From: Dyella acidisoli
Lineage (GTDB): Bacteria; Pseudomonadota; Gammaproteobacteria; Xanthomonadales; Rhodanobacteraceae
Direction: 5' to 3'
DNA length: 64,000 nt
Assembly (NCBI RefSeq): GCF_030160295.1
Contig: NZ_BSOB01000025.1
Span: forward strand, 1 to 64,000
Part shown: positions 13,879 through 36,562 of the stretch, piece after piece
Numbering within the stretch: the first letter of the stretch is position 1
Layout: the number at the start of each line of letters is the position of its first letter
Program-made: the position numbers and the translations under genes
The notes under the pieces: generated by a model
Told to the model about the DNA's origin: nothing
Seen by the model: only the letters and a program-made list of their open reading frames with translations
Database searches by the model: none

Positions 13879-13956
13879 GTCGTCCCGGCGAAGGCCGGGA
13901 CCCAGCGACTGTGCTTCGACGTCAAGACACTGGGCCCCGGCCTTCGCCGGGGCGAC
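13879..13956. repeat. REP-like inverted pair, family A copy 2
   Basis: Units at 13879-13905 and 13930-13956 face each other with core CGGCGAAGGCCG; outer bases differ from copy 1 (GTCGTCCC rather than GTCATTCC). The two units differ from mutual complementarity at only a few positions. The remaining gap to fliL (13957-14204) holds a sigma-54 site and no gene. Confidence 0.85.
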
Positions 13957-14120
13957 GAGCTGTGGCTTTTTCATCAGCGTTGGATAGGTGGCGGCAGCAC
14001 ATCGCGCACCGACGAAATCACCACGCACACGCCCCGCCTACATCCCGACACGCGTCAATAAAACGCCGCCCTGCCTCTTCACATCACGCACAAACCGCGC
14101 CGCCACGCGGTTCCTAAGCA

Positions 14121-14136
14121 TGGCACGCCGCTTGCT
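14121..14136 (+). promoter_or_regulatory. Sigma-54 promoter of fliLMNOPQR
   Basis: TGGCACG-CCGC-TTGCT is a perfect sigma-54 consensus with GG at 14122-14123 and GC at 14134-14135. It lies 68 bases before the fliL ATG and is the only strong site in the gap between fliK and fliL. Confidence 0.88.
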
Positions 14137-14204
14137 AAAACACTCCTAGCTAAGCCCGCTTCGCGAAGCGCGGCATCACGTCTTGTTATGGAACGGGGTT
14201 GTTC

Positions 14205-14696
14205 ATGGCTAACGCCGAGTCTCTCGATGGAAACGAAACTGCGACTGCCAAGAAAAAGGGCGGGACAAAGCTGTACATCGGCATCGCTGTCGTCGCGCTG
14301 CTGGGCGCAGGCGGTTATCTGTACAGCCGCGGGCAAGGCGCGCAGGCAAATGCCGCGACGGCAACCGCGCCCAAGGCACCGGAATTGTTCCTGCCGCTCG
14401 ATCCTGCCTTCGTCGTGAATTTCCAGGATCAGGATTCCACGCGCTATCTGCAGGTGGGCGTGACCGTGATGACGCACGATCCGGCTGCCGTACAGGCCAT
14501 GAAAGAAAGCGATCCGGTGATCCGCAACGCGCTAGTGATGTTGTTCAGTAGCCAGACCTATGCCGGCCTGAGCGACATCGCGGGCAAGAAAAAGCTGCAG
14601 GCCGAGGCGCTGGACGCTGTGCGCAAGATCGTGGCCGACAAGACCGGCAAGCCGGATGTCGATGCCTTGTATTTCACCAGCTTCGTCATGCAGTAA
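14205..14696 (+). CDS. fliL: Flagellar basal-body protein FliL
   Basis: Stator-associated membrane protein, 163 residues. A lysine-rich cytosolic start is followed by one transmembrane helix (about 24-42, LYIGIAVVALLGAGGYLY) and a periplasmic domain with FLPLDPAFVVNF and RYLQVGVTV typical of FliL. The in-frame TTG at 14199 is two codons upstream; ATG at 14205 is preferred. First gene of the fliLMNOPQR operon behind a perfect sigma-54 site. Confidence 0.95.
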   Translation: MANAESLDGNETATAKKKGGTKLYIGIAVVALLGAGGYLYSRGQGAQANAATATAPKAPELFLPLDPAFVVNFQDQDSTRYLQVGVTVMTHDPAAVQAMKESDPVIRNALVMLFSSQTYAGLSDIAGKKKLQAEALDAVRKIVADKTGKPDVDALYFTSFVMQ

Positions 14697-14709
14697 CGGG
14701 GAACAAGCG

Positions 14710-15726
14710 ATGAGCGACCTGCTTTCCCAGGAAGAAATCGACGCCCTGCTCAACGGCGTCGACGGAGGCCAGATCGAAACCGAAAGCGACATGCCGCCGC
14801 CGCCGGGTTCGGTGCTGGATTTCGACTTTACCCAGCAGGACCGCATCGTGCGCGGCCGATTGCCGACGCTGGAGATGATCAACGATCGCTTCGCGCGCTT
14901 CTTCCGCACTCAGTTGTTCGGCGTACTGCGCAAGACCTGCGAAGTGTCGGTGCTCGGCGTAAAGATGCAGAAGTTCAGCGAATACGTGCACGGACTGAAC
15001 GTGCCGAGCAATCTCAACCTGATCAAGGTGAAGCCGCTGCGCGGTACCGCGCTCGCGGTGATGGAGCCGCGGCTGGTGTTCACCGTGATCGACAACTTCT
15101 TCGGCGGCGACGGGCGCTATCACGCGCGCATCGAAGGTCGTGATTTCACGCCGACCGAAAACCGCGTCATCCAGATCCTGCTCGCCGAAGTGTTTGTCGC
15201 GATGACCGAAGCCTGGGCGCCGGCTATGCAGGTGCAGTTCGAATTCACCAATTCCGAGATCAATCCGCAGTTCGCCAACATTGTCAGCCCCACCGAGACC
15301 GTAGTGGTCTCGCGCTTCCACGTGGAACTCGATGGCGGTGGTGGCGAAGTGCATCTCACTCTGCCTTACGCGATGGTGGAGCCGATCCGCACCATGCTCG
15401 ATGCCGGTGTGCAGAGCGACCGTATGGGCGAGCGCGACGAGCGCTGGATCAACTGCCTGCATGAGGAAGTGATGGACGCGGAAGTCGAGCTCAGTTCGCT
15501 GCTGCTGGAAACCGAGATCAGCATCGGCGACTTCCTGGGCTTGCGCGTCGGGGACGTGATTCCCATCGGCCTGCCGGATGTCACCACCGTGTTTGCCGAA
15601 GACATACCGATTTTCCGCGGCGAGTATGGCCAATCCAATGGCCGCTACGCGGTTCGCTACAAGCGCGCGGCCGGGCGCCGTGCCCCGCTTTCCACGTTCG
15701 ACTTTGCTCCGGAAAAAATCGCATGA
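14710..15726 (+). CDS. fliM: Flagellar switch protein FliM
   Basis: C-ring protein, 338 residues. The N-terminal CheY-P docking peptide is present (LSQEEIDALLNG, residues 5-16), followed by the CheC-like middle domain (LDFDFTQQDRIVRGRLPTLE) and a FliN-like C-terminal domain. The start codon follows the fliL stop by 13 bases. It overlaps fliN by four bases. The reading frame continues upstream to 14656, which only shadows fliL. Confidence 0.97.
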   Translation: MSDLLSQEEIDALLNGVDGGQIETESDMPPPPGSVLDFDFTQQDRIVRGRLPTLEMINDRFARFFRTQLFGVLRKTCEVSVLGVKMQKFSEYVHGLNVPSNLNLIKVKPLRGTALAVMEPRLVFTVIDNFFGGDGRYHARIEGRDFTPTENRVIQILLAEVFVAMTEAWAPAMQVQFEFTNSEINPQFANIVSPTETVVVSRFHVELDGGGGEVHLTLPYAMVEPIRTMLDAGVQSDRMGERDERWINCLHEEVMDAEVELSSLLLETEISIGDFLGLRVGDVIPIGLPDVTTVFAEDIPIFRGEYGQSNGRYAVRYKRAAGRRAPLSTFDFAPEKIA

Positions 15727-22058: not shown

Positions 22059-23390
22059 ATGAAAATCAAACGCTTCCTCGCCCCCGACATGCGTCAAGCG
22101 ATGCGCGACGTGCGTACAGAGCAGGGCGCTGACGCAGTGATTCTTTCTACGCGCCGTCTCGAAGAAGGTATCGAAATCATCGCCGCCGTCGACTACGACG
22201 AAGCGCTGATGCGCGAAGCTGCACGAGTCAACACGCCAGCGCCGGCCGTCACGAAACCGCCGGTGAAGGAAACCATCAAGGAGACACCGCGCGAAACGCT
22301 GAAAGAGCGCGCGAAGGATGTCGCCAAAGAACCCGTCAAAGAAGTCGTGAAGGAGCCGGTGCGCGCGGTCACGCCACCGCCGCCGCCGCCGTTGCCGTTA
22401 CCGACGAGCGAAATCGCCGCGCTGCAGCCGATGATCGAACAGCACGCGTTGGAAACCGCGCGCATGCGCACCGAACTCGGTGGCCTGCGCCAGTTGCTCG
22501 AACAGCAACTTTCCAGCCTTGCGTGGAACGACATGGAGCGCCGCAGCCCCATGCGCGCTCGTGTGTTGCGCGACATGTCGCGGCTGGGGATCGATACCGA
22601 TGTGGCGCGCCAGCTCATCGATGAGCTGCCTGAAAACATCAATGCTGATCAGGCGCGCTATTTGCCGCTGGGTCTGCTCAGCCGCAGCCTGAAAGTGAGC
22701 GGCCGCAGCCTTGCTGACGTATGCGGCGTGACGGCGCTGGTCGGTCCCACCGGTGTGGGCAAGACCACCACCATCGCCAAGCTCGCCGCGTGCGCGGTGA
22801 AGCATCACGGCCCGACCAAAGTCGCCTTGGTCAGCACCGATCACTACCGCATCGGCGCCGCCGCGCAACTCGAACACTATGGCCGCTTGCTGAGCGTGCG
22901 CGTGTATCCCGCCTACGACGCGATCGGCTTGGCGCAGACGCTGCACCTGTTGCGCGATCACCACACCGTGCTGGTCGATACCGCGGGTGTGTCCGGCAGC
23001 GATCCGCGTCTGCAACAACAGATGGACGTATTGCGCGAAGCCAGCGCGCACGGTGCCTCGCAGTTGCGTACGTGCCTGGTACTGGCCGCGAATGCACAAG
23101 CGTCCGCGCTGGACGAATCGGTGCGCGCGTATCTGCCGATCAAGCCGAGTGCGTGCATCGCCACCAAGCTGGACGAAGCACCGAGCCTGGGTGGCTTGCT
23201 CTCGGTTCTGGTCCGTCACGGCATTCCGCTGGATTGCACCACCGACGGCCAACGCGTTCCCGAAGACATCAGTGCTGCCGACGCGCGCGTGCTCGTGTGC
23301 CGCGCCGCGCAGCAGCAGCGCCGGCTCGGCTTCGCGGGCGATGAGCTGGATATGGCCGAGCGCTTCGGCATGGCGGTGGCGGGTCTATGA
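22059..23390 (+). CDS. flhF: Polar flagellar placement GTPase FlhF
   Basis: SRP-type GTPase that fixes the flagellar site at the cell pole; 443 residues. The N-terminal B domain begins MKIKRFLAPDMRQAMRDVR. A Lys/Glu/Pro-rich linker (about 60-130, several KE(T/P)(I/V/L)KE units and a proline run) follows. The NG domain has P-loop GPTGVGKTTT from residue 229 and the DTAGVSGSD switch. Its stop overlaps the flhG start, so the antagonist pair is co-translated. Confidence 0.96.
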   Translation: MKIKRFLAPDMRQAMRDVRTEQGADAVILSTRRLEEGIEIIAAVDYDEALMREAARVNTPAPAVTKPPVKETIKETPRETLKERAKDVAKEPVKEVVKEPVRAVTPPPPPPLPLPTSEIAALQPMIEQHALETARMRTELGGLRQLLEQQLSSLAWNDMERRSPMRARVLRDMSRLGIDTDVARQLIDELPENINADQARYLPLGLLSRSLKVSGRSLADVCGVTALVGPTGVGKTTTIAKLAACAVKHHGPTKVALVSTDHYRIGAAAQLEHYGRLLSVRVYPAYDAIGLAQTLHLLRDHHTVLVDTAGVSGSDPRLQQQMDVLREASAHGASQLRTCLVLAANAQASALDESVRAYLPIKPSACIATKLDEAPSLGGLLSVLVRHGIPLDCTTDGQRVPEDISAADARVLVCRAAQQQRRLGFAGDELDMAERFGMAVAGL

Positions 23391-24328
23391 ACAAGGCAGT
23401 GCACATGAATCAGGCAGCCGGTTTGCACAACCTGTTTTCCGCCGCCCCTACGCCGCTCGAGGAGGTGGACGTGTTCCATCAGGCTGCAAGCTTGCGCCCG
23501 ATCGTTCCCCGCACGCGCATCACGCGCACCATTGCGGTCGCTGGCGGCAAGGGCGGCGTTGGGAAGACCACGGTGGCCGTCAATCTTGCCATGGCGATGG
23601 CGATGGCCGGCCGCGACGTGATGCTGCTGGATGCGGACATGGGCGTGGCCAATGTGGACGTGCAACTGGGCTTGAACACCATGCGCCACGTGGGCCATCT
23701 GCTGGAAGGCCAGTGCACGCTGCAGGATCTGATCATCCCGGCGCAGCACGGCTTGAAGGTGATACCGGGTGGTTCGGGCATCCGCCGCCTGGCCAAGATG
23801 GGCAACGGTGAGCATGCCGCAGTGATCCGCGCATTCGACGACTTGATCCAGCCGCCGGAATTTCTGGTGGTGGATACCGCAGCCGGCGTGGCTGACAACG
23901 TGGCGATGTTCGCCGCCGCGTCCGACGACGTGCTGATCGTGGTGTGCGACGAACTGGCGTCGCTCACCGATGCGTATGCCTTGATCAAGATTCTCGCCCA
24001 CGACTTCGGCGTGCGGCGCTTTCATATCGTCGCCAACATGGTCCGCCAGGCGGGCGACGCGAAAAAACTCTACGAAAAACTGGCGCGTGTATGCGGGCGC
24101 TTCCTCGATGTAGCGCTCGACTACATGGGCATGCTGCCGTACGACGAGTGGCTGCGTCAGGCTATTCGTCGCCAGGGGGCTGTCGTCGACTTGTGGCCAT
24201 CCAGCCGCGCGGCGATGGGATTCAAGCAATTGGCATGTGCGGTCGATACATGGGGGAAACCCGCGTACCCGGACCTGGGCCGAATTGCCTTTTTCAGCGG
24301 CCAGAGCGTGCCGGCCGCGGGGTGGTGA
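23387..24328 (+). CDS. flhG: Flagellar number regulator FlhG (FleN), MinD/ParA-type ATPase
   Basis: ATPase that limits flagellar number and restrains FleQ and FlhF; 313 residues. Near the N-terminus FHQAASLR matches the FlhF-activating DQAxxLR motif except for His in place of Asp. The deviant Walker A GGKGGVGKTT is at 53-62, and DADMGVANVD and VDTAAGVADNV are the MinD-type signatures. It overlaps flhF by four bases and is followed at once by fliA. Confidence 0.95.
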   Translation: MNKAVHMNQAAGLHNLFSAAPTPLEEVDVFHQAASLRPIVPRTRITRTIAVAGGKGGVGKTTVAVNLAMAMAMAGRDVMLLDADMGVANVDVQLGLNTMRHVGHLLEGQCTLQDLIIPAQHGLKVIPGGSGIRRLAKMGNGEHAAVIRAFDDLIQPPEFLVVDTAAGVADNVAMFAAASDDVLIVVCDELASLTDAYALIKILAHDFGVRRFHIVANMVRQAGDAKKLYEKLARVCGRFLDVALDYMGMLPYDEWLRQAIRRQGAVVDLWPSSRAAMGFKQLACAVDTWGKPAYPDLGRIAFFSGQSVPAAGW

Positions 24329-25151: not shown

Positions 25152-25559
25152 TTGGACAAGAACATGAAAATCCTGGTGGTGGACGACTTTTCCACCATGC
25201 GGCGAATCGTTCGCAACCTGCTGGTCGAACTGGGTTTCAGTAACCCGATGATCCAGGAAGCCGACGACGGCCATAACGCCCTGGCGATGCTGAAGGCCAA
25301 CGCCTTCGACATGGTGGTGACCGACTGGAACATGCCGAACATGACCGGCATCGAATTGCTGCAGGCGATCCGCGCGGAGCCCAAGCTGAAAGGCTTGCCG
25401 GTGCTGATGGTCACTGCCGAAAACAATCGCGAGCAGATCATCGCTGCCGCGCAGGCCGGCGTGAACGGCTACATCGTCAAGCCTTTTACCGCGAACACGC
25501 TCAAAGAAAAGCTGGACAAGATCTTCGAGCGCCTGGCCGCCAGTGGAGCATCCGCATGA
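25152..25559 (+). CDS. cheY: Chemotaxis response regulator CheY
   Basis: Single receiver domain that binds FliM when phosphorylated; 135 residues. The acidic pair DD at 11-12, phospho-acceptor D58 (VVTDWNMP), Thr in VTAE and K in VKPF are all present, and [19 protein letters not shown] is nearly the enterobacterial sequence. The TTG start at 25152 is chosen because GGAGA lies seven bases upstream; the ATG at 25164 would be 19 bases away. cheZ overlaps its end. Confidence 0.96.
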
Positions 25560-26200
25560 GTGCAACTATGACCGTGGCCTTCGACGAAGGCCTTCCGCCT
25601 GAAGTGTTGGATTTGCTCAACAGCAAAGATGGCACCGCCTTCGAGCAGGCACTGGATGCGATGGTGCGTCAGCGCGAACAGCATTTGTTCCGCGCACTCG
25701 GCGTGCTCGCGCGCGATCTGCATGGTGCGGTGTCTCGTCTGGGCAGCGATCTGGCGAACGAGGGCGTGCCCGACAGCATGGCCGACGCGCGCAATCATCT
25801 GGCCGAAGTGTTGGAGATGAGTTCCAAGGCCGCGCATCGCAGCCTGGATTTTGTCGACCGTATTCGCCCGGAAGCGGAAGCGCTGTCCAACAACGCCAAC
25901 GCCGTGCTGGATTTCAATAGCAGCGAAACCGATCCGGCCGCCGTGTTGGCGCGCCAGGCGCAGGTATTTGCCAGCGCGTGTTGCGAAGGCCTCAACGACA
26001 TGGTGCTGGTGCAGTCCTGGCAGGACCTGGCCGGGCAGCGCGTGAAGAAAGTGGTCGGCTTCATCGAAAGCGTGGAATCGTCACTGCTGGAACTGGTGCG
26101 CCTCACCGGTGCGCTGGCCGGACGCGAAGCGCCGGTGGAAGTGGCGAAGGTGAACAGCCAGGACGAAGTGGATCGTCTGCTGAGCGAATTCGGCTTCTGA
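25556..26200 (+). CDS. cheZ: CheY-P phosphatase CheZ
   Basis: Helical-hairpin phosphatase of 214 residues. The catalytic segment [16 protein letters not shown] carries the Asp and Gln of the CheZ active site. The C-terminal CheY-binding peptide [12 protein letters not shown] is exact in type. ATG overlaps the cheY stop (ATGA). CheZ is typical of gamma- and betaproteobacteria with flagellar systems. Confidence 0.95.
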
Positions 26201-26235: not shown

Positions 26236-26313
26236 GTCATTCCCGCGAAAGCGGGAATCCATGTTGCTTTGATGCAAAAAGCGAAAATGGATTCCCGCTT
26301 TCGCGGGAATGAC
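26236..26313. repeat. REP-like inverted pair, family A copy 4
   Basis: Units 26236-26262 and 26287-26313 are perfect reverse complements with core CCGCGAAAGCGG, flanked by GTCATT and AATCCAT. Same core as copy 5 at 28372. It sits between cheZ and cheA. Confidence 0.92.
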
Positions 26314-26372
26314 GGCCAGGAGGAGATGAGCATCCCTGCAGACCGTTACCCGGACATCAAGGAAACACATTG

Positions 26373-28316
26373 ATGGACGCCAACCTCGACAGCGAGCTGC
26401 GTGACGATTTCCTGGTCGAGGCCGGGGAATTGGTGCAACGGCTGGGCGAGCAGCTCGTCGAGCTGGAAGCCTCGCCGCACGATCGCGAGCTGCTCAATGC
26501 GGTATTCCGCGTCTTCCACACAGTGAAGGGCGGCGCGGGTTTTCTCGGCATCGAACCCATGGTGCAGCTATGCCATTGCGCAGAAGAACTGCTCAACGAC
26601 GCGCGCAACGGCAAGCTGGTGTTGAATTCGACACATATGGATGCGTTGCTGGAAGCGCTGGACCTGCTCAACGTGATGATGGCAGCGCTGGCCAATGGCG
26701 ACGCGATGTCGCCGCCGCCATCGGCCTTGCTGGAACGCTTGCAGCCGGTCGTCGAGACTTCTTCGCTTGCACGAGGATCTGCCAAGCCTGCGCGTTCCGC
26801 CGATCCGATCGAAGCGGAGTTCGAAGCGCTGCTCGATACCTTGTACGGACAAGGCGGTGCGCCGGGCGCAACCAAGCACATCTCCAACGACATCAACGAC
26901 GACGAATTCGAAAGCCTGCTCGATACGCTGCACGGCAAAGGCAGTGCACCCGGCACGGCCAAACCTGAAGCAGCTGAAAAGAAAGAGATCAGCGACGACG
27001 AATTCGAAACGTTACTCGACAATCTGCACGGCAAAGGCAGTGCGCCGGGTCAAGTTGTTGCAGAAACGCCTGCGCCCGCACCGGCACCTGCTCCTGTTGC
27101 GGTTGCAGAGGCACGTCCCGCAACTGCGGCCAAACCGGCTGCCGAAACCACTGTACGTGTGGACACCACGCGCCTGGACGCGCTCGTCAGTCGCGCAGGC
27201 GAGCTGGTGTTGCTGCGCAATCGCCTGTTGAGTCTTGCCTCGCGCAGCGACAACGAAATGCTGGCGACGATGGCGGGCGATCTCGATCGTGTGTCCGACG
27301 ATCTACAGAATGCCGTGCTGGGCATGCGCATGCAGCCGGTCGGCCGTCTATTCCAACGCTTCCCGCGCATTGTGCGCGATCTTGCACGCCAGCTCGGGAA
27401 AGACATCGAGCTGATCACCGAGGGCGAAGACACCGATCTCGACCGCAGCCTGGTCGAAGCCCTGGCTGATCCGCTGATTCACTTGTTGCGTAACGCCGTC
27501 GATCATGGTCTGGAAGATCCCGCTGGTCGCGAACGTGCCGGAAAGCCACGCAAGGGCAAAGTAAAACTCTCCGCCAGTCAGCGCGGCGAGCGCATCGTGA
27601 TCTCAGTGAGCGACGATGGTCGCGGCATGGATCCGGACGTGCTCCGGCGCAAGGCGGTGGAGAAAGGCGTCATCGATGCGACGCAGGCTGCGCGCCTGTC
27701 GGAAGTCGAATGCTATGAATTGATTTTCCGTCCCGGCTTCAGCACCGCCGCGACGATCTCCGACATCTCCGGCCGCGGCGTCGGCATGGATGTGGTGAAA
27801 ACACGCGTCGCTGAACTCGGCGGCACCTTGCAGGTGCATTCGCGCCTGGGTTCCGGCAGCACGCTGGAACTTACCGTGCCGCTGACGCTCGCCATCTTGC
27901 GCGTGCTAATGGTGCGTGTGGGCGACCGCCTGTTCGCGCTGCCGTTGGGCAACGTCAGCGAAGTCTTCGAACTAAGCCCGCAGCACGATCACATGCTCGA
28001 TGGCCGTCGCGTCGCCGCACATCGCGGGCGTGCGCTGGTACTGGGTGATCTGGCTGATTGGGTCGGTGTGAACGGTCAGGGCGGACGCAACGTGGTGGTG
28101 CTGCATGTTGGTCATATGCATCTTGGCTGCCTGGTGCATGAAGTAATCGGTCGCGAAGATGTGATGGTGAAGCCGCTGGGTCCGCTGTTCGAAGGTGTGC
28201 CGGGTGTGGCGGGTGCGACGGTTACGGGCGACGGGCGGCTTGCACTGGTTTTGGATCTCGCTGCGTTGTCGCAAGAAGGCGGGAGCTTGCTTCCCTCTTT
28301 GAAGGTGTCGGCTTGA
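26373..28316 (+). CDS. cheA: Chemotaxis histidine kinase CheA (flagellar-operon copy)
   Basis: Kinase that phosphorylates CheY and CheB; 647 residues. P1 phosphotransfer domain with H49 (VFHTVKGGAGFLG), P3 dimerisation (from about 259), P4 catalytic domain (HLLRNAVDHGLE, DDGRGMD, GRGVGMDVVKTRV) and P5 CheW-like domain. No ordinary P2 domain is visible. Instead residues 148-226 contain three copies of (D/E)EFExLLDxLxGxGxAPG in a Pro/Ala linker. ATG at 26373 has AAGGA upstream; TTG at 26370 is the alternative. A second CheA with P2 is at 34577. Confidence 0.95.
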   Translation: MDANLDSELRDDFLVEAGELVQRLGEQLVELEASPHDRELLNAVFRVFHTVKGGAGFLGIEPMVQLCHCAEELLNDARNGKLVLNSTHMDALLEALDLLNVMMAALANGDAMSPPPSALLERLQPVVETSSLARGSAKPARSADPIEAEFEALLDTLYGQGGAPGATKHISNDINDDEFESLLDTLHGKGSAPGTAKPEAAEKKEISDDEFETLLDNLHGKGSAPGQVVAETPAPAPAPAPVAVAEARPATAAKPAAETTVRVDTTRLDALVSRAGELVLLRNRLLSLASRSDNEMLATMAGDLDRVSDDLQNAVLGMRMQPVGRLFQRFPRIVRDLARQLGKDIELITEGEDTDLDRSLVEALADPLIHLLRNAVDHGLEDPAGRERAGKPRKGKVKLSASQRGERIVISVSDDGRGMDPDVLRRKAVEKGVIDATQAARLSEVECYELIFRPGFSTAATISDISGRGVGMDVVKTRVAELGGTLQVHSRLGSGSTLELTVPLTLAILRVLMVRVGDRLFALPLGNVSEVFELSPQHDHMLDGRRVAAHRGRALVLGDLADWVGVNGQGGRNVVVLHVGHMHLGCLVHEVIGREDVMVKPLGPLFEGVPGVAGATVTGDGRLALVLDLAALSQEGGSLLPSLKVSA

Positions 28317-28371: not shown

Positions 28372-28447
28372 GTCATTCCCGCGAAAGCGGGAATCCATTT
28401 GCCGTGAGGCAAGAGCGAAGATGGATTCCCGCTTTCGCGGGAATGAC
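28372..28447. repeat. REP-like inverted pair, family A copy 5
   Basis: Units 28372-28398 and 28421-28447 are perfect reverse complements with the same core as copy 4. It lies between cheA and motC; no gene or promoter motif was seen beside it. Confidence 0.92.
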
Positions 28448-28479
28448 GGCAAGAAGAATGAGCTGCGAGGGCGGGTGAT

Positions 28480-29220: not shown

Positions 29221-30305
29221 GACGCCGCCGGCACAAGCATGAGGAACATCCCAACCACGAAGCGTGGGTGATTCCGTACGCGGATCTGCTCACGTTGTTG
29301 CTGGCGCTGTTCGTCGTGCTGTATGCGATGTCCAGCGTCAACACCACCAAATACCGCGCATTGGCGCAGGCAATCTCGTCAGCATTCAACGGCTCGCGTG
29401 CGGTGATCCAGCCGGTCACGCCGAATTCGCCGCAATCGAGCGTGCCGGTGCCGACCAACAAGCCAGCACCGATTCCGCGTACGCCGCTTGCGCAGATTCT
29501 GCTGCCGGTACTTACACAGCACATTGCCACGCCCAACACGACACCGGGCACGCCATCCGACCAGAACAAGACCAAGCTCAGCGAAGAGCAACAGAATCTG
29601 GAACGCATCCGCAACCAGGTGGAACGCGCACTGCAGCCGCTGATCGACAAGAACCTGGTGGTGGTGCGACGCACGCCGACCTGGCTGGAAATCGAAATCC
29701 GCACGGACATTTTGTTCCCGAGCGGCGTCGCCACCCTGTCGCCGTCGGCCACGCAGGTGCTGACCAGCCTCGGCGACATCCTTGCGCCATTCGGCAATCC
29801 GCTGCGCGTGGAAGGCTATACCGATGACATGCCGATCAATACGGCCGTCTATCCTTCCAACTGGGAGCTTTCTGCAGCGCGCGCGGCGAGCGTGGCGCGC
29901 CTGTTCGCGGAGCACGGCGTGGATCCGGAACGTCTGGGTATCGTCGGTTGGGGGCAATACCGTCCTGCGGCCGACAATCTGAGTGCAGACGGCCGCAACA
30001 AAAACCGCCGCGTGCTGGTGGTGGTGTTGAGTGACAAGGCCGCACCGCGCCGCTTCTACACCAACAGCGATCAGATCAACCAAACCGCCGACACGCAAAG
30101 CGACACGAGCGACGGGCAGAACGCGATGACTGCGCCATCACCCGCCGTTGCCGGGCAACCCACTGCGCCTGTGGCGACGCCGCGACTCGTCGTGACGCCG
30201 CCCGCCACACTGCCTTCGACGCCCGCCATCACGCCGGTTGCCTCGCTGATCACGACGCCAGCCGAGTCGGCGCCGCATGCGAACACGCCAGACGGCAAGG
30301 GATAA
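29217..30305 (+). CDS. motD: Flagellar motor stator protein MotD (MotB family)
   Basis: Peptidoglycan-anchored stator subunit, 362 residues. A basic start (MRRRRHKHEEH) is followed by the plug/transmembrane helix with the proton-carrying Asp at D23 (IPYADLLTLLLALFVVLYAM). An OmpA-type domain (about 160-265, with VEGYTDDMPI and NWELSAARAASVARLF) follows. Residues beyond 275 form an Asn/Gln then Pro/Thr/Ala-rich tail of about 85 residues, longer than in most MotB proteins. Confidence 0.93.
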   Translation: MRRRRHKHEEHPNHEAWVIPYADLLTLLLALFVVLYAMSSVNTTKYRALAQAISSAFNGSRAVIQPVTPNSPQSSVPVPTNKPAPIPRTPLAQILLPVLTQHIATPNTTPGTPSDQNKTKLSEEQQNLERIRNQVERALQPLIDKNLVVVRRTPTWLEIEIRTDILFPSGVATLSPSATQVLTSLGDILAPFGNPLRVEGYTDDMPINTAVYPSNWELSAARAASVARLFAEHGVDPERLGIVGWGQYRPAADNLSADGRNKNRRVLVVVLSDKAAPRRFYTNSDQINQTADTQSDTSDGQNAMTAPSPAVAGQPTAPVATPRLVVTPPATLPSTPAITPVASLITTPAESAPHANTPDGKG

Positions 30306-30309
30306 CGTC

Positions 30310-30786
30310 ATGAGTCTTGTGCCCGACCTTGAAGCAATCGCACGCGAACCCTGGCTGTCATTTCAGCTGCACGGGCAGCATTACGCAGTGCTGCTCAGCC
30401 GCGTGAGCGAGGTGATCCGCGATTGCGTACCGACGCCAGTGCCCGGCGCCGCGGACGATCTGCTCGGCATCTGCCATCTGCGCGGCAACATCGTGCCGGT
30501 GATGGACGGACGCCGGCGCCTTGGCCTGGCCGGAAACTCCGCAAGCGATGCAGCTACTACGCGCATTGTCGTTTGCTCGCACGAAACACATCGCGTTGGC
30601 ATACGCGTGGATGCGGTAGGCGACCTCCTGCAACCGAAACTCGAAGCGATCGAACTGCCGCCCGCGCGTTCGGGACGCGTGGACGACCCCGTGCAAGCCG
30701 TGATGGGGTGGCACGGGGGCTTCGTGGCGTTGCTCGATGTACCGAAGTTGTGCCGGTTGGACCGCGGCATCAAAGAAGCCGCCTAG
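30310..30786 (+). CDS. CheW-like protein at the end of the fliA-che-mot operon
   Basis: A single CheW domain of 158 residues (WLSFQLHGQHYAVLLSRVSEVIRD, ICHLRGNIVPVMDGRRRLGL, GIRVDAVGDLL). It starts four bases after motD. It may be a coupling protein or, by position, a ParP-like array adaptor without its ParC partner. It diverges clearly from the CheW at 37169, so the two probably serve different arrays or steps. Last gene before the Fic-type insertion. Confidence 0.85.
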   Translation: MSLVPDLEAIAREPWLSFQLHGQHYAVLLSRVSEVIRDCVPTPVPGAADDLLGICHLRGNIVPVMDGRRRLGLAGNSASDAATTRIVVCSHETHRVGIRVDAVGDLLQPKLEAIELPPARSGRVDDPVQAVMGWHGGFVALLDVPKLCRLDRGIKEAA

Positions 30787-30844: not shown

Positions 30845-30955
30845 TATAGCCGATTAAATGTTGTTTTTTTAATAGGCTTTAGCCTATTAAAATTTGAAAT
30901 AGATATAGCTTATAGCCTATTATTATCGCGCCTTCTCATAGGTCATGGGCTATGA
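30845..30955 (+). promoter_or_regulatory. AT-rich promoter with repeated operator half-sites
   Basis: A sigma-70-type promoter reads TTGAAA (30894-30899), 18-base spacer, TATTAT (30918-30923). A perfect palindrome AATAGGCTTTAGCCTATT occupies 30871-30888. Variants of the half-site TAGCCTATT recur at 30845-30856 (TATAGCCGATTA), at 30911-30922 over the -10, and as an imperfect palindrome at 30938-30955 over the start codon. This layout suits autorepression by the HTH protein encoded next. The base composition differs sharply from the flagellar genes on either side. Confidence 0.75.
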
Positions 30956-31416
30956 AAAAAGCAATCTCAACAGCGGCCAAGGCCAGGAAAAACCTGGACA
31001 TTCGGCTTGGCGAAGGGCAAGCCCTGCGTCAGAAACTGGCGCGCCCCAATCAAGGGTGGATCCGTGCGATCCGCCAGGCGCTGGGCATGACGGCGGAACA
31101 ATTGGGCCACCGCATGGGCATCACCCAGGCCACGCTAAGTGGCTTGGAGGCGTCCGAAATCAATGGCGCGATCCGGTTGGCGACGCTGCGCAAGGCGGCC
31201 GAAGCGATGAATTGCACGCTGGTCTATGCCCTCGTGCCCAACACGTCGTTGGAGGACATCGTGCAAGGCCAAGCGAGGAAGGTCGCTGCCGAACAGCTCA
31301 AGCCGGTCGAACACACCATGCTGCTGGAGAACCAGTCTCTGCACGGCGGAGTGCGCGAAGAGTTCTTGCAAAGCTATGTCGAAAACGAGATCGACTTCAG
31401 CAAGTTGTGGCGGTAG
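30952..31416 (+). CDS. Mobile mystery protein A: XRE-family antitoxin-like regulator
   Basis: 154 residues with an XRE helix-turn-helix at about 34-90 (IRAIRQALGMTAEQLGHRMGITQATLSGLEASE). It is always paired with a Fic protein in this family (mobile mystery A/B, TIGR02612/TIGR02613), and the Fic gene follows four bases after its stop. The expected role is DNA binding at its own palindromic promoter and neutralisation of the Fic partner; that is family knowledge and inference. The initiation region has only a weak AGG, and an overlapping ATG in another frame at 30945 is not supported. Confidence 0.85.
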   Translation: MKKAISTAAKARKNLDIRLGEGQALRQKLARPNQGWIRAIRQALGMTAEQLGHRMGITQATLSGLEASEINGAIRLATLRKAAEAMNCTLVYALVPNTSLEDIVQGQARKVAAEQLKPVEHTMLLENQSLHGGVREEFLQSYVENEIDFSKLWR

Positions 31417-31420
31417 TTGC

Positions 31421-32014
31421 ATGGCCGATCTGTTTGATGCGGATGACGGGCAGACCGAGCTGAGTTTGGAGGAGCGCAAAGGTCTTAAACCGGCATACAT
31501 CACCTATCGCTCCGAATTGAATCGAGAGGAGCAGGAGAACATCCTGAAGGCGGAAAAGTGGCTATTCGCGCGACGTCTTGCCACTCCGGACCTTGTCGAT
31601 CAAGGTTTCATCTGCCAGGTCCACAAGCGGATGTATGGCGACGTTTGGGATTGGGCCGGCAAGTACCGCCAGAGCGATCGCAACATCGGCGTGGATTACT
31701 ACCGGATTCACCAGGAAATGCGTGTGTTCGTGGATGACGTCCGCTACTGGATCGAACATGCCATCTATCCGGCCGACGAACTTGCCGTTCGATTTCATCA
31801 TCGCTTGGTGTGGATACATCCTTTCCCGAACGGCAACGGCCGTTTGTCTCGTCTGCTGGCCGATCGCTTGGTGGTGAATTTAGGCGAACCCCGATTCACC
31901 TGGGGAAGAGCGCACTTGGTCAGCGCTGGCGATGTGCGGGCTCGTTATGTGGATGCGTTACGAAAAGCCGATGCGCACGATCTTGCCGCGCTGCTTGCTT
32001 TCGCCCGGTCGTGA
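31421..32014 (+). CDS. Mobile mystery protein B: Fic/DOC domain protein
   Basis: 197 residues with an intact Fic motif HPFPNGNGR beginning at H133, so AMP-transfer or a similar nucleotidyl reaction on a protein target is chemically possible. VWDWAGKYRQSDRNIGVDYY upstream is the usual Fic flap region. The Fic inhibitory helix (S/T)xxxE(G/N) is not evident in this protein or, by eye, in its partner. It forms a bicistron with the XRE gene and ends eleven bases before the convergent flhB-like gene. Target unknown. Confidence 0.88.
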   Translation: MADLFDADDGQTELSLEERKGLKPAYITYRSELNREEQENILKAEKWLFARRLATPDLVDQGFICQVHKRMYGDVWDWAGKYRQSDRNIGVDYYRIHQEMRVFVDDVRYWIEHAIYPADELAVRFHHRLVWIHPFPNGNGRLSRLLADRLVVNLGEPRFTWGRAHLVSAGDVRARYVDALRKADAHDLAALLAFARS

Positions 32015-34576: not shown

Positions 34577-36562
34577 ATGAGCAGCATCAGCATCGCCCAA
34601 TTCCACAAAGTCTTCTTCGAAGAAAGCCTCGAAGGACTCGATGCCATGGAATCGGCGCTGCTAGCGCTCGACGACGGTGGCGATGCCGAACTGGTGCACA
34701 GCATTTTCCGTGCAGCGCATTCGATCAAAGGCGGTTCGGCCACGTTCGGTTTTCCGGACATGGCGGCGCTCACGCATGAAGCCGAATCGCTGCTTGATCA
34801 GGTGCGCGATGGCCGCCGTGCGATCGACAAGTCGATCATCGAACTGATGTTGCGCACGGTGGACTGCCTGCGCGGCATGTTCGACCGTGCGCAAAGCGGC
34901 CAGCCTTTGGCTGACGCAGACAGCGAAAACCTGAAGCAGCAGCTTGCTGCGGCGGTAGGACACAACACGCCTGCCGCGGCGGCCAAAATTGCAGCAAAAC
35001 CGGCCGCTTCCAGCGGCTGGATCATTCACTTCCGTCCCCACGCTGGCATGTTGGCCGGCGGCAACGACCCGTTGCGTCTGTTGCGTGAACTGGCTGCGCT
35101 CGGTCAGCTGGTCGTCGAGGCACAGTTGGATCGTGTGCCCACGCTGGATGCACTCGACCCGTCCGAATGCCACCTGGGCTGGCGTATCGAACTGACCGGT
35201 GCGGTCAGCCAGGACGCCATCAAAACGGTGTTCGAATGGGTCGAGGACGAATGCGATCTCACTATCGAGCCGCTCGTTGTTGCTGCGCCACCGCCCGCAC
35301 CCGCGGTCGAAGCTGTTGCAGCGCCGGCTGCCGGTGCGGGCGGCGCGGCGGGAACCGCGCGCAATGCTGCAGCAAGCAGTAACGATGCCGGCTCCGTGCG
35401 CGTGGCGATCGACAAGATCGACGGTCTGATCGATTTGGTTGGCGAGTTGGTGATCACACAAGCCATGCTCGATCAGTTCCGCGAAGATTTCGACGCTTCA
35501 CGCTTGGCGCTGCTGCAGCATGGCTTGGCGCAGCTTGCACGCCACACCCGCTCGCTGCAGGAAAGCGTGATGGGCATACGCATGTTACCGATCGGTTCGG
35601 TGTTCAACCGTTTTCCGCGCCTGGTGCGCGATCTCAGCCAGAAGCTGGGCAAGCAGGTGAAGCTGGATCTGGTCGGCGAACACACCGAACTCGACAAGAC
35701 CGTGCTGGAAAAAATCGGTGATCCGCTGGTGCATCTGGTGCGCAATGCGATCGACCATGGCTTGGAAATGCCAGACAAACGTCGCGCCGCCGGCAAGAAC
35801 GAAGTGGGCACGCTGCGCCTGGAAGCGTTCCATCGCGGCGGTTCCATCGTGGTGGAAATTTCCGATGACGGCGCCGGCCTCAATCGCGAAGCGATCGTCG
35901 CAAAGGCTTTGCAAAAAGGCTTGATCAAGAGCGGCGAAGGATTGAGCGACGAAGCAGTTGGAGAGCTGATTTTCCAGCCGGGTTTTTCGACCGCGGCAGT
36001 GACCACGGATCTATCTGGCCGTGGTGTCGGCATGGACGTGGTTCGCCGCAACGTGGTGGATCTGGGTGGCAACGTGGCCATCAAGAGCCGCGCGGGGCAG
36101 GGCACGACCTTCACCATCACCTTGCCGCTGACGTTGGCGATCATCGACGGATTGCGCGCGGCCGTGGGCGGTGAGTGCTACATCGTGCCGCTGGTGTCGA
36201 TCGTGGAATCGGTGCAGTTACCCGCCGATGCGGTACGTAGCGTGACCGGCGGCGGCGAGTTGTTCCGCTTCCGCGGCGAATACCTGCCGATCGTGCGCTT
36301 GCATCAGCAATTCGGTTGCGCGGATGCGCGGCAGCAGATCGAAGAAGGTCTGGTGATCGTGGTTGAAGCAGACGGTACGCAGATCGGCTTGTTCGTCGAT
36401 GAACTGGTCGGCCAGCAGCAAGCGGTCGTGAAGTCGTTGGAAGCCAATTACCGGCGTGTCGACGGTATTTCCGGCGCCACCATTCTCGCCGACGGCTCGG
36501 TGGCCCTGATCGTCGACGTGGCCGGATTGATTCGTTTGCAGTCGCGACGCAAGGCAGCTTAG
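34577..36562 (+). CDS. Chemotaxis histidine kinase CheA, second copy
   Basis: 661 residues. P1 with H48 (IFRAAHSIKGGSATFGF), a P2-like CheY-binding domain at about 145-235 (SGWIIHFRPHAGMLAGGNDPL), P3 at about 275-340, P4 with HLVRNAIDHGLEMPDKR, DDGAGLN and GRGVGMDVVRRNV, and the P5 CheW-like domain to the end. All kinase motifs are intact. Unlike the CheA at 26373, it keeps P2 and has no EFExLLD repeats. Its stop codon lies in sequence shared with the MCP remnant that follows. Confidence 0.95.
   Translation: MSSISIAQFHKVFFEESLEGLDAMESALLALDDGGDAELVHSIFRAAHSIKGGSATFGFPDMAALTHEAESLLDQVRDGRRAIDKSIIELMLRTVDCLRGMFDRAQSGQPLADADSENLKQQLAAAVGHNTPAAAAKIAAKPAASSGWIIHFRPHAGMLAGGNDPLRLLRELAALGQLVVEAQLDRVPTLDALDPSECHLGWRIELTGAVSQDAIKTVFEWVEDECDLTIEPLVVAAPPPAPAVEAVAAPAAGAGGAAGTARNAAASSNDAGSVRVAIDKIDGLIDLVGELVITQAMLDQFREDFDASRLALLQHGLAQLARHTRSLQESVMGIRMLPIGSVFNRFPRLVRDLSQKLGKQVKLDLVGEHTELDKTVLEKIGDPLVHLVRNAIDHGLEMPDKRRAAGKNEVGTLRLEAFHRGGSIVVEISDDGAGLNREAIVAKALQKGLIKSGEGLSDEAVGELIFQPGFSTAAVTTDLSGRGVGMDVVRRNVVDLGGNVAIKSRAGQGTTFTITLPLTLAIIDGLRAAVGGECYIVPLVSIVESVQLPADAVRSVTGGGELFRFRGEYLPIVRLHQQFGCADARQQIEEGLVIVVEADGTQIGLFVDELVGQQQAVVKSLEANYRRVDGISGATILADGSVALIVDVAGLIRLQSRRKAA

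Follow-up and report, generated by a model that had tools for sequence, protein, structure and literature searches.

The flagellar CheA encoded in the 64,000-nucleotide stretch of Dyella acidisoli DNA analysed here (the window) has no P2 domain and carries, between P1 and P3, three copies of the motif x-(A/D)-E-F-E-x-L-L-D-x-L-(H/Y)-G-x-G-x-A-P-G. This repeat in the place of P2 is real, widely conserved and apparently so far undescribed; no occurrence of the motif letters was found in the literature searched. Judged from sequence, the best remaining explanation is that the repeats are linear helices on which CheY docks in place of P2, a tentative reading that falls a little short of an even chance. 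Independently of CheY, the conserved repeats lie in the region given as the LID and are not tied to ParC/ParP.

Three linker repeats in a P2-less CheA

The gene, cheA1 (26370-28316; this and all other window features given here are on the forward strand), encodes 648 amino acids and probably starts at ATG 26373 rather than TTG 26370. Its product has the core domains of a CheA kinase in order by Pfam: Hpt (residues 9-100), H-kinase_dim (260-317), HATPase_c (367-506), and CheW (512-635). The P1 (Hpt) domain (26394-26721) contains the phosphorylation-site motif FHTVKGG and is modelled as a four-helix bundle with a pLDDT of 96-98. We assign cheA1 to chemosensory class F6 from the gene order flhF-flhG-fliA-cheY-cheZ-cheA-motC-motD-cheW and from its closest relatives. 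The flagellar-chemotaxis cluster of the window is of the Dyella type, the closest named relatives being Dyella monticola and D. mobilis. REP-like palindromic elements (ttcccgcgaaagcgggaa) lie on both sides of cheA (26238-26325 and 28372-28452), and directly after cheW, within the flagellar/chemotaxis region, come two ORFs, one HTH-type and one Fic-like (30952-32014), that resemble a toxin-antitoxin-like pair.

Three CheA repeats between P1 and P3 were announced in a preliminary description and are present as described, albeit with residue numbers that were off by 1-2. Repeat 1, EAEFEALLDTLYGQGGAPG (26811-26867), has the core EFEALLDTLYGQGGAPG at 26817-26867 (residues 150-166); repeat 2, DDEFESLLDTLHGKGSAPG (26898-26954), has the core EFESLLDTLHGKGSAPG at 26904-26954 (residues 179-195); and repeat 3, DDEFETLLDNLHGKGSAPG (26994-27050), has the core EFETLLDNLHGKGSAPG at 27000-27050 (residues 211-227). 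All three are supported by sequence, motif score, and dN/dS. The (D/E)EFE opening originally given for the repeats does not hold for copy 1, which starts A-E-F-E. Downstream of repeat 3, a Pro/Ala-rich spacer of low pLDDT (27051-27143) leads to P3. With a 13-mer motif score, the three copies reach 34-44; in 2220 shuffles of the linker, the best score has a median of -16 and never exceeds 8.6. Shuffled linkers, together with conservation across the class, rule out a chance repeat or a local expansion.

P2 is missing from over half of all CheAs (PMC10782961), and the proposed absence of a visible P2 from cheA1 is borne out: neither P2 (PF07194) nor the CheY-binding domain (PF09078) gives a Pfam match even at E<=10, and hhalign matches no P2 region to the linker. 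In an AlphaFold2 model of residues 2-259, built from an alignment of 72 sequences, the chain after P1 is modelled at low confidence, and each of the three repeats there forms a short helix of its own (residues 145-158, 176-187, and 208-218, numbered from Met 26373; pLDDT around 65-79), with neither strands nor a P2 fold between P1 and P3. A hidden P2 is thus ruled out by Pfam, AlphaFold2, and hhalign. The repeat region likewise has no match in the PDB at E<=10. Among 19 repeat-bearing CheAs, none has a Pfam match to P2 or the CheY-binding domain; such a match is found in two of 11 repeat-less CheAs, and in most of the rest the stretch at this place is of P2 length.

The second CheA of the window, cheA2 (34577-36562), was used for comparison and is the converse of cheA1 by Pfam and sequence, having no repeat and a P2-like block. 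This block of around 92 residues (35003-35278, limits approximate) lines up collinearly with the place of P2 in other CheAs that lack repeats; Pfam calls no P2 in cheA2, and hhalign matches the block only weakly (E 0.045) to two CheY-binding domains that Pfam recognises. Elsewhere, in a sister family, a ParC-like gene (around 290 bits) adjoins the second CheA (G019, C37:9873-10649; G030, C1:2465105-2465881); in G019, this ParC-like gene and the second CheA are far away from the repeat CheA.

Distribution and conservation of the repeat

Every P2-less CheA of the cheA1 type examined in the Gammaproteobacteria has the repeat, usually in two to four copies. A first survey of 111 CheAs, partly biased because the motif itself served as one of the two peptides used for searching, gave one copy in two cases, two in 24, three in 73, and four in 12; E3, F4, and L8 of the repeat were 99-100% conserved in this set. 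The survey of repeat number that had been proposed for CheA orthologues was also made on 80 class members picked for overall CheA similarity alone: between one and eight copies occur in 69 of them, and the 11 without are more distant CheAs of other kinds. No repeats were found in 12 CheAs from a phylum-wide search, most of which come from beyond the class or represent other kinds of CheA, and no non-CheA ORF in around 290 loci scores over 18 for the motif. Genomes that appear Vibrio-like from their few large replicons (L262, L265, L266, and L268) have three copies between P1 and P3 and no P2-like block.

Across 13 Dyella-type genomes, dN/dS is 0.054 for the repeats, 0.110 for P1, and 0.233 for the spacers; no other part of the N-terminal half of CheA evolves as slowly as the repeats. 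The largest array seen, with around eight copies, is in L229 (G062). In L126 (G220), the CheA linker carries a different module, LPEGVDPDGEITDDEFEALLNQRD, three times, with the helix kept and the HGxGxAPG turn replaced. A Dyella-type chemotaxis cluster also occurs on a contig titled Candidatus Eremiobacteraeota (L023; CAJCJD010000236.1), which is probably misbinned.

The repeats in the absence of ParC and ParP

In Vibrio CheA, the LID lies between P2 and P3 and is bound by the AIF domain of ParP; published work restricts it to species that have both ParC and ParP (PMC5706961, PMC7534058). Most of the loci read have parC and parP downstream of cheA, and ParC is encoded in the same locus for 54 of the 69 repeat CheAs of the class sample. 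The position of the cheA1 repeats, between P1/P2 and P3, is that of the LID, and in ParP-bearing species the repeat-bearing linker is probably the region described as the ParP-binding LID. ParC and ParP are themselves missing from the window genome: the motD-cheW junction (30270-30310), where relatives have parC-parP, is empty, with the motD ORF ending at 30305 and the next ATG at 30310. In Rhodanobacter (L024), the same junction holds parC (13952-14737) and parP (to 15279), and parC-parP are retained in Luteibacter (L034) and in L032 as well.

The absence extends to the whole genome. True ParC scores 284-408 bits and generic ParA around 180 bits, with a single match in the window genome (G000) and its congeners; the best G000 match, at 182 bits, is at the generic ParA level seen in every relative. 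Full-length ParP is likewise absent from G000 and congeners, where only partial CheW-like matches of around 31 bits occur (versus 82 in G024 and 134 in G016). Genome-wide, neither ParC nor ParP was found in the window genome, in 14 congeners with a cheA1-type CheA, or in G017 and G018. One congener, G003, has no cheA1-type CheA altogether; the repeats are present in all other congeners. Six further families (f33, f36, f13, f22, f99, and f165) keep the repeats without ParC or full ParP, although the repeats are degenerate in f36 and some of the genomes are incomplete MAGs. For P. aeruginosa, genes related to ParC/ParP have been given as lacking (PMC12410967, 2025); Pseudomonas-type loci L054, L087, and L096, which are not from P. 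aeruginosa itself, have clear parC-parP between motD and cheW.

With neither ParC nor ParP encoded anywhere in the genome, the repeats are nonetheless under strong purifying selection, and this constraint therefore has a cause other than ParP. It is impossible that ParP is the sole partner of the repeats, and another partner must keep the motif constant. A ParP-only anchor is ruled out for the Dyella lineage by the absence of ParC/ParP combined with the dN/dS of the repeats, barring a ParP that has diverged too strongly to be recognised. Dyella and its relatives thus offer a natural lineage for a clean test of a role that does not involve ParP.

A proposed model for CheY docking

The proposed docking partner is CheY1, encoded in the same operon (cheY1, 25152-25559; Pfam Response_reg). 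In this reading, the linker between P1 and P3 of the P2-less CheA is disordered and bears the repeats as short helical linear motifs for docking. Each repeat has two parts, an acidic, amphipathic helix with a cap (DDEFExLLDxL) and, behind it, the flexible turn GxGxAPG. The repeats may hold the operon's CheY by its alpha4-beta5-alpha5 face, the one by which P2, the FliM N-terminus, and the CheZ C-terminus hold it. With P1 on the same arm, a held CheY could be phosphorylated quickly, and several weak sites would concentrate CheY locally at the array. Where a species has ParC/ParP, the motif would serve two partners, CheY and ParP, the latter probably being an additional partner wherever it is present; the Dyella lineage would have kept the CheY role only. 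Should the repeats indeed dock CheY, multivalent linear motifs instead of a folded domain would do this job in the principal flagellar CheA of many bacteria with polar flagella.

The N-terminal EIDALL helix of FliM is an established CheY-binding site that occupies the alpha4-alpha5 groove of CheY (PMC9126983, PMC6946799). Both peptides with which the repeats had been compared are found in the window: QEEIDALLNG at the FliM N-terminus (14728-14757, by sequence and FliM profile) and a C-terminal peptide of the CheY-binding type (26159-26197) in cheZ (25556-26200; Pfam CheZ). A FliM-derived profile places the best CheA repeat among the top five of around 13,800 windows in 55 of 55 loci; being related, these loci are not independent. 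On a subset of 10 loci, the observed median was matched by none of 60 profiles with permuted columns. By this sequence comparison, the FliM match of the repeats is in register and not only a matter of composition. Within the window, the repeats rank 5, 6, and 15 of 56,987 windows, and unrelated peptides score as well. The CheZ profile performs more weakly, with a median rank of 6 across loci, a rank of 35 for the window, and one of 60 permutations as good; among all 56,987 windows of the single-window comparison, the repeats rank only 36-191. The reported resemblance to FliM and CheZ peptides accordingly stands for FliM and is weak for CheZ.

The suggestion that linear docking motifs replace P2 gains from the missing P2, the isolated helices, the purifying selection, the FliM register match in all loci, and the converse situation in cheA2; weighing against it are the weak CheZ likeness, an overlap with SHOCT, and the lack of stabilisation of the helices by CheY. 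This last point comes from an AlphaFold2 chain with CheY and CheA in cis, in which the presence of CheY brings the repeat helices, at a pLDDT of 72-74, no gain in confidence; the chain yields no interface scores and its tether is a nonsense sequence, which makes it a weak test. The chain was obtained by reading through from cheY to cheA with TGA taken as Gly, which serves as a modelling tether only and makes no claim about translation.

Competing explanations

FliM-type EIDAL helices bind FlhG as well as CheY. The resemblance of the repeat to the FliM EIDAL helix could also point to docking of another partner (FlhG, CheW/CheV, CheB, or a polar organiser) that localises the array or the kinase. 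A gene for FlhG, assigned by gene order as the MinD-like ATPase ORF with GGKGGVGKTT (23387-24328), lies just upstream of fliA-cheY1, and in the loci read, cheA1-type CheA is found with polar-flagellum gene clusters. Such a partner would be a plausible contender, though somewhat unlikely. A role confined to the LID, in which the repeats would bind the AIF domain of ParP to tie CheA into polar arrays and do nothing else, draws on the position and ParP binding of the published LID, on the repeats being the conserved element of the P1-P3 linker, and on the frequent presence of ParC in the same locus. Strong purifying selection in a lineage without ParC/ParP and the six families that keep the repeats without ParC or full ParP make this role improbable; moreover, if the LID is the repeats, its published restriction to ParC/ParP species fails. 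Of the earlier alternative of a LID or ParP anchor, what survives is the region, probably rightly identified for ParP-bearing species, and not ParP anchoring as the only role.

The least probable of these explanations appears to be that the repeats are SHOCT-like helices which order the CheA linker or dimer by associating with one another or with P1/P3. PF09851 matches 14 of the 19 repeat CheAs at E<=0.1 (best E 3.9e-9), and arrays of one to eight copies with free spacing would suit such a role. The window CheA, however, reaches only 9.2 of the 27 bits that the cut-off requires (E 1.4, with 13 of the 28 profile positions covered), AlphaFold2 gives separate helices, and SHOCT, a domain of two helices that is usually C-terminal, did not oligomerise when tested (PMC3581485). 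Part of the motif is thus shared with the generic SHOCT helix, so that some of the resemblance to FliM is that of a common capped helix, and the shape itself may be generic. The SHOCT matches of related CheAs fall on the I-T-x-E-E-F-E type helix.

CheY docking in place of P2 may extend beyond Dyella. Throughout the gammaproteobacterial flagellar CheA class (Pseudomonas, Shewanella, Vibrio-like, Dyella, and others), the folded P2 could be replaced by an array of helices that mimic FliM and dock CheY, a generalisation that is possible though rather doubtful. The ParP-binding LID would then be another use of the same array, because the array outlives ParC/ParP in several lineages.

Comparison with known systems

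Judged by published position, the cheA1 repeats are in the same place of the same CheA type as the Vibrio LID, which is published as following a P2 and as occurring only with ParC/ParP, whereas the cheA1 repeats occur without either protein and without any P2. P2 (PF07194, PF09078) occupies the same place in the chain and would do the same proposed job of keeping CheY near P1; it is, however, a folded alpha/beta domain of around 70-90 residues, in contrast to the isolated helices of 11-14 residues formed by the repeats. SHOCT is approached closely by related CheAs but differs in its two helices and its usual C-terminal location, with the window copy far under the cut-off. The CheZ C-terminal peptide, from the same operon, is an acidic helix whose LL falls in register with that of the repeats, although its profile similarity is weak and it ends in GF at the C-terminus. 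The FliM EIDALL helix shows the same capped, acidic, amphipathic register (S-Q-D-E-I-D-A-L-L in FliM, T-D-D-E-F-E-A-L-L in the repeats), but is a single N-terminal copy without the LDxLHGxGxAPG extension. Where the repeats have their invariant F, FliM has I/V, and the FliM and CheZ peptides together show I/V/A.
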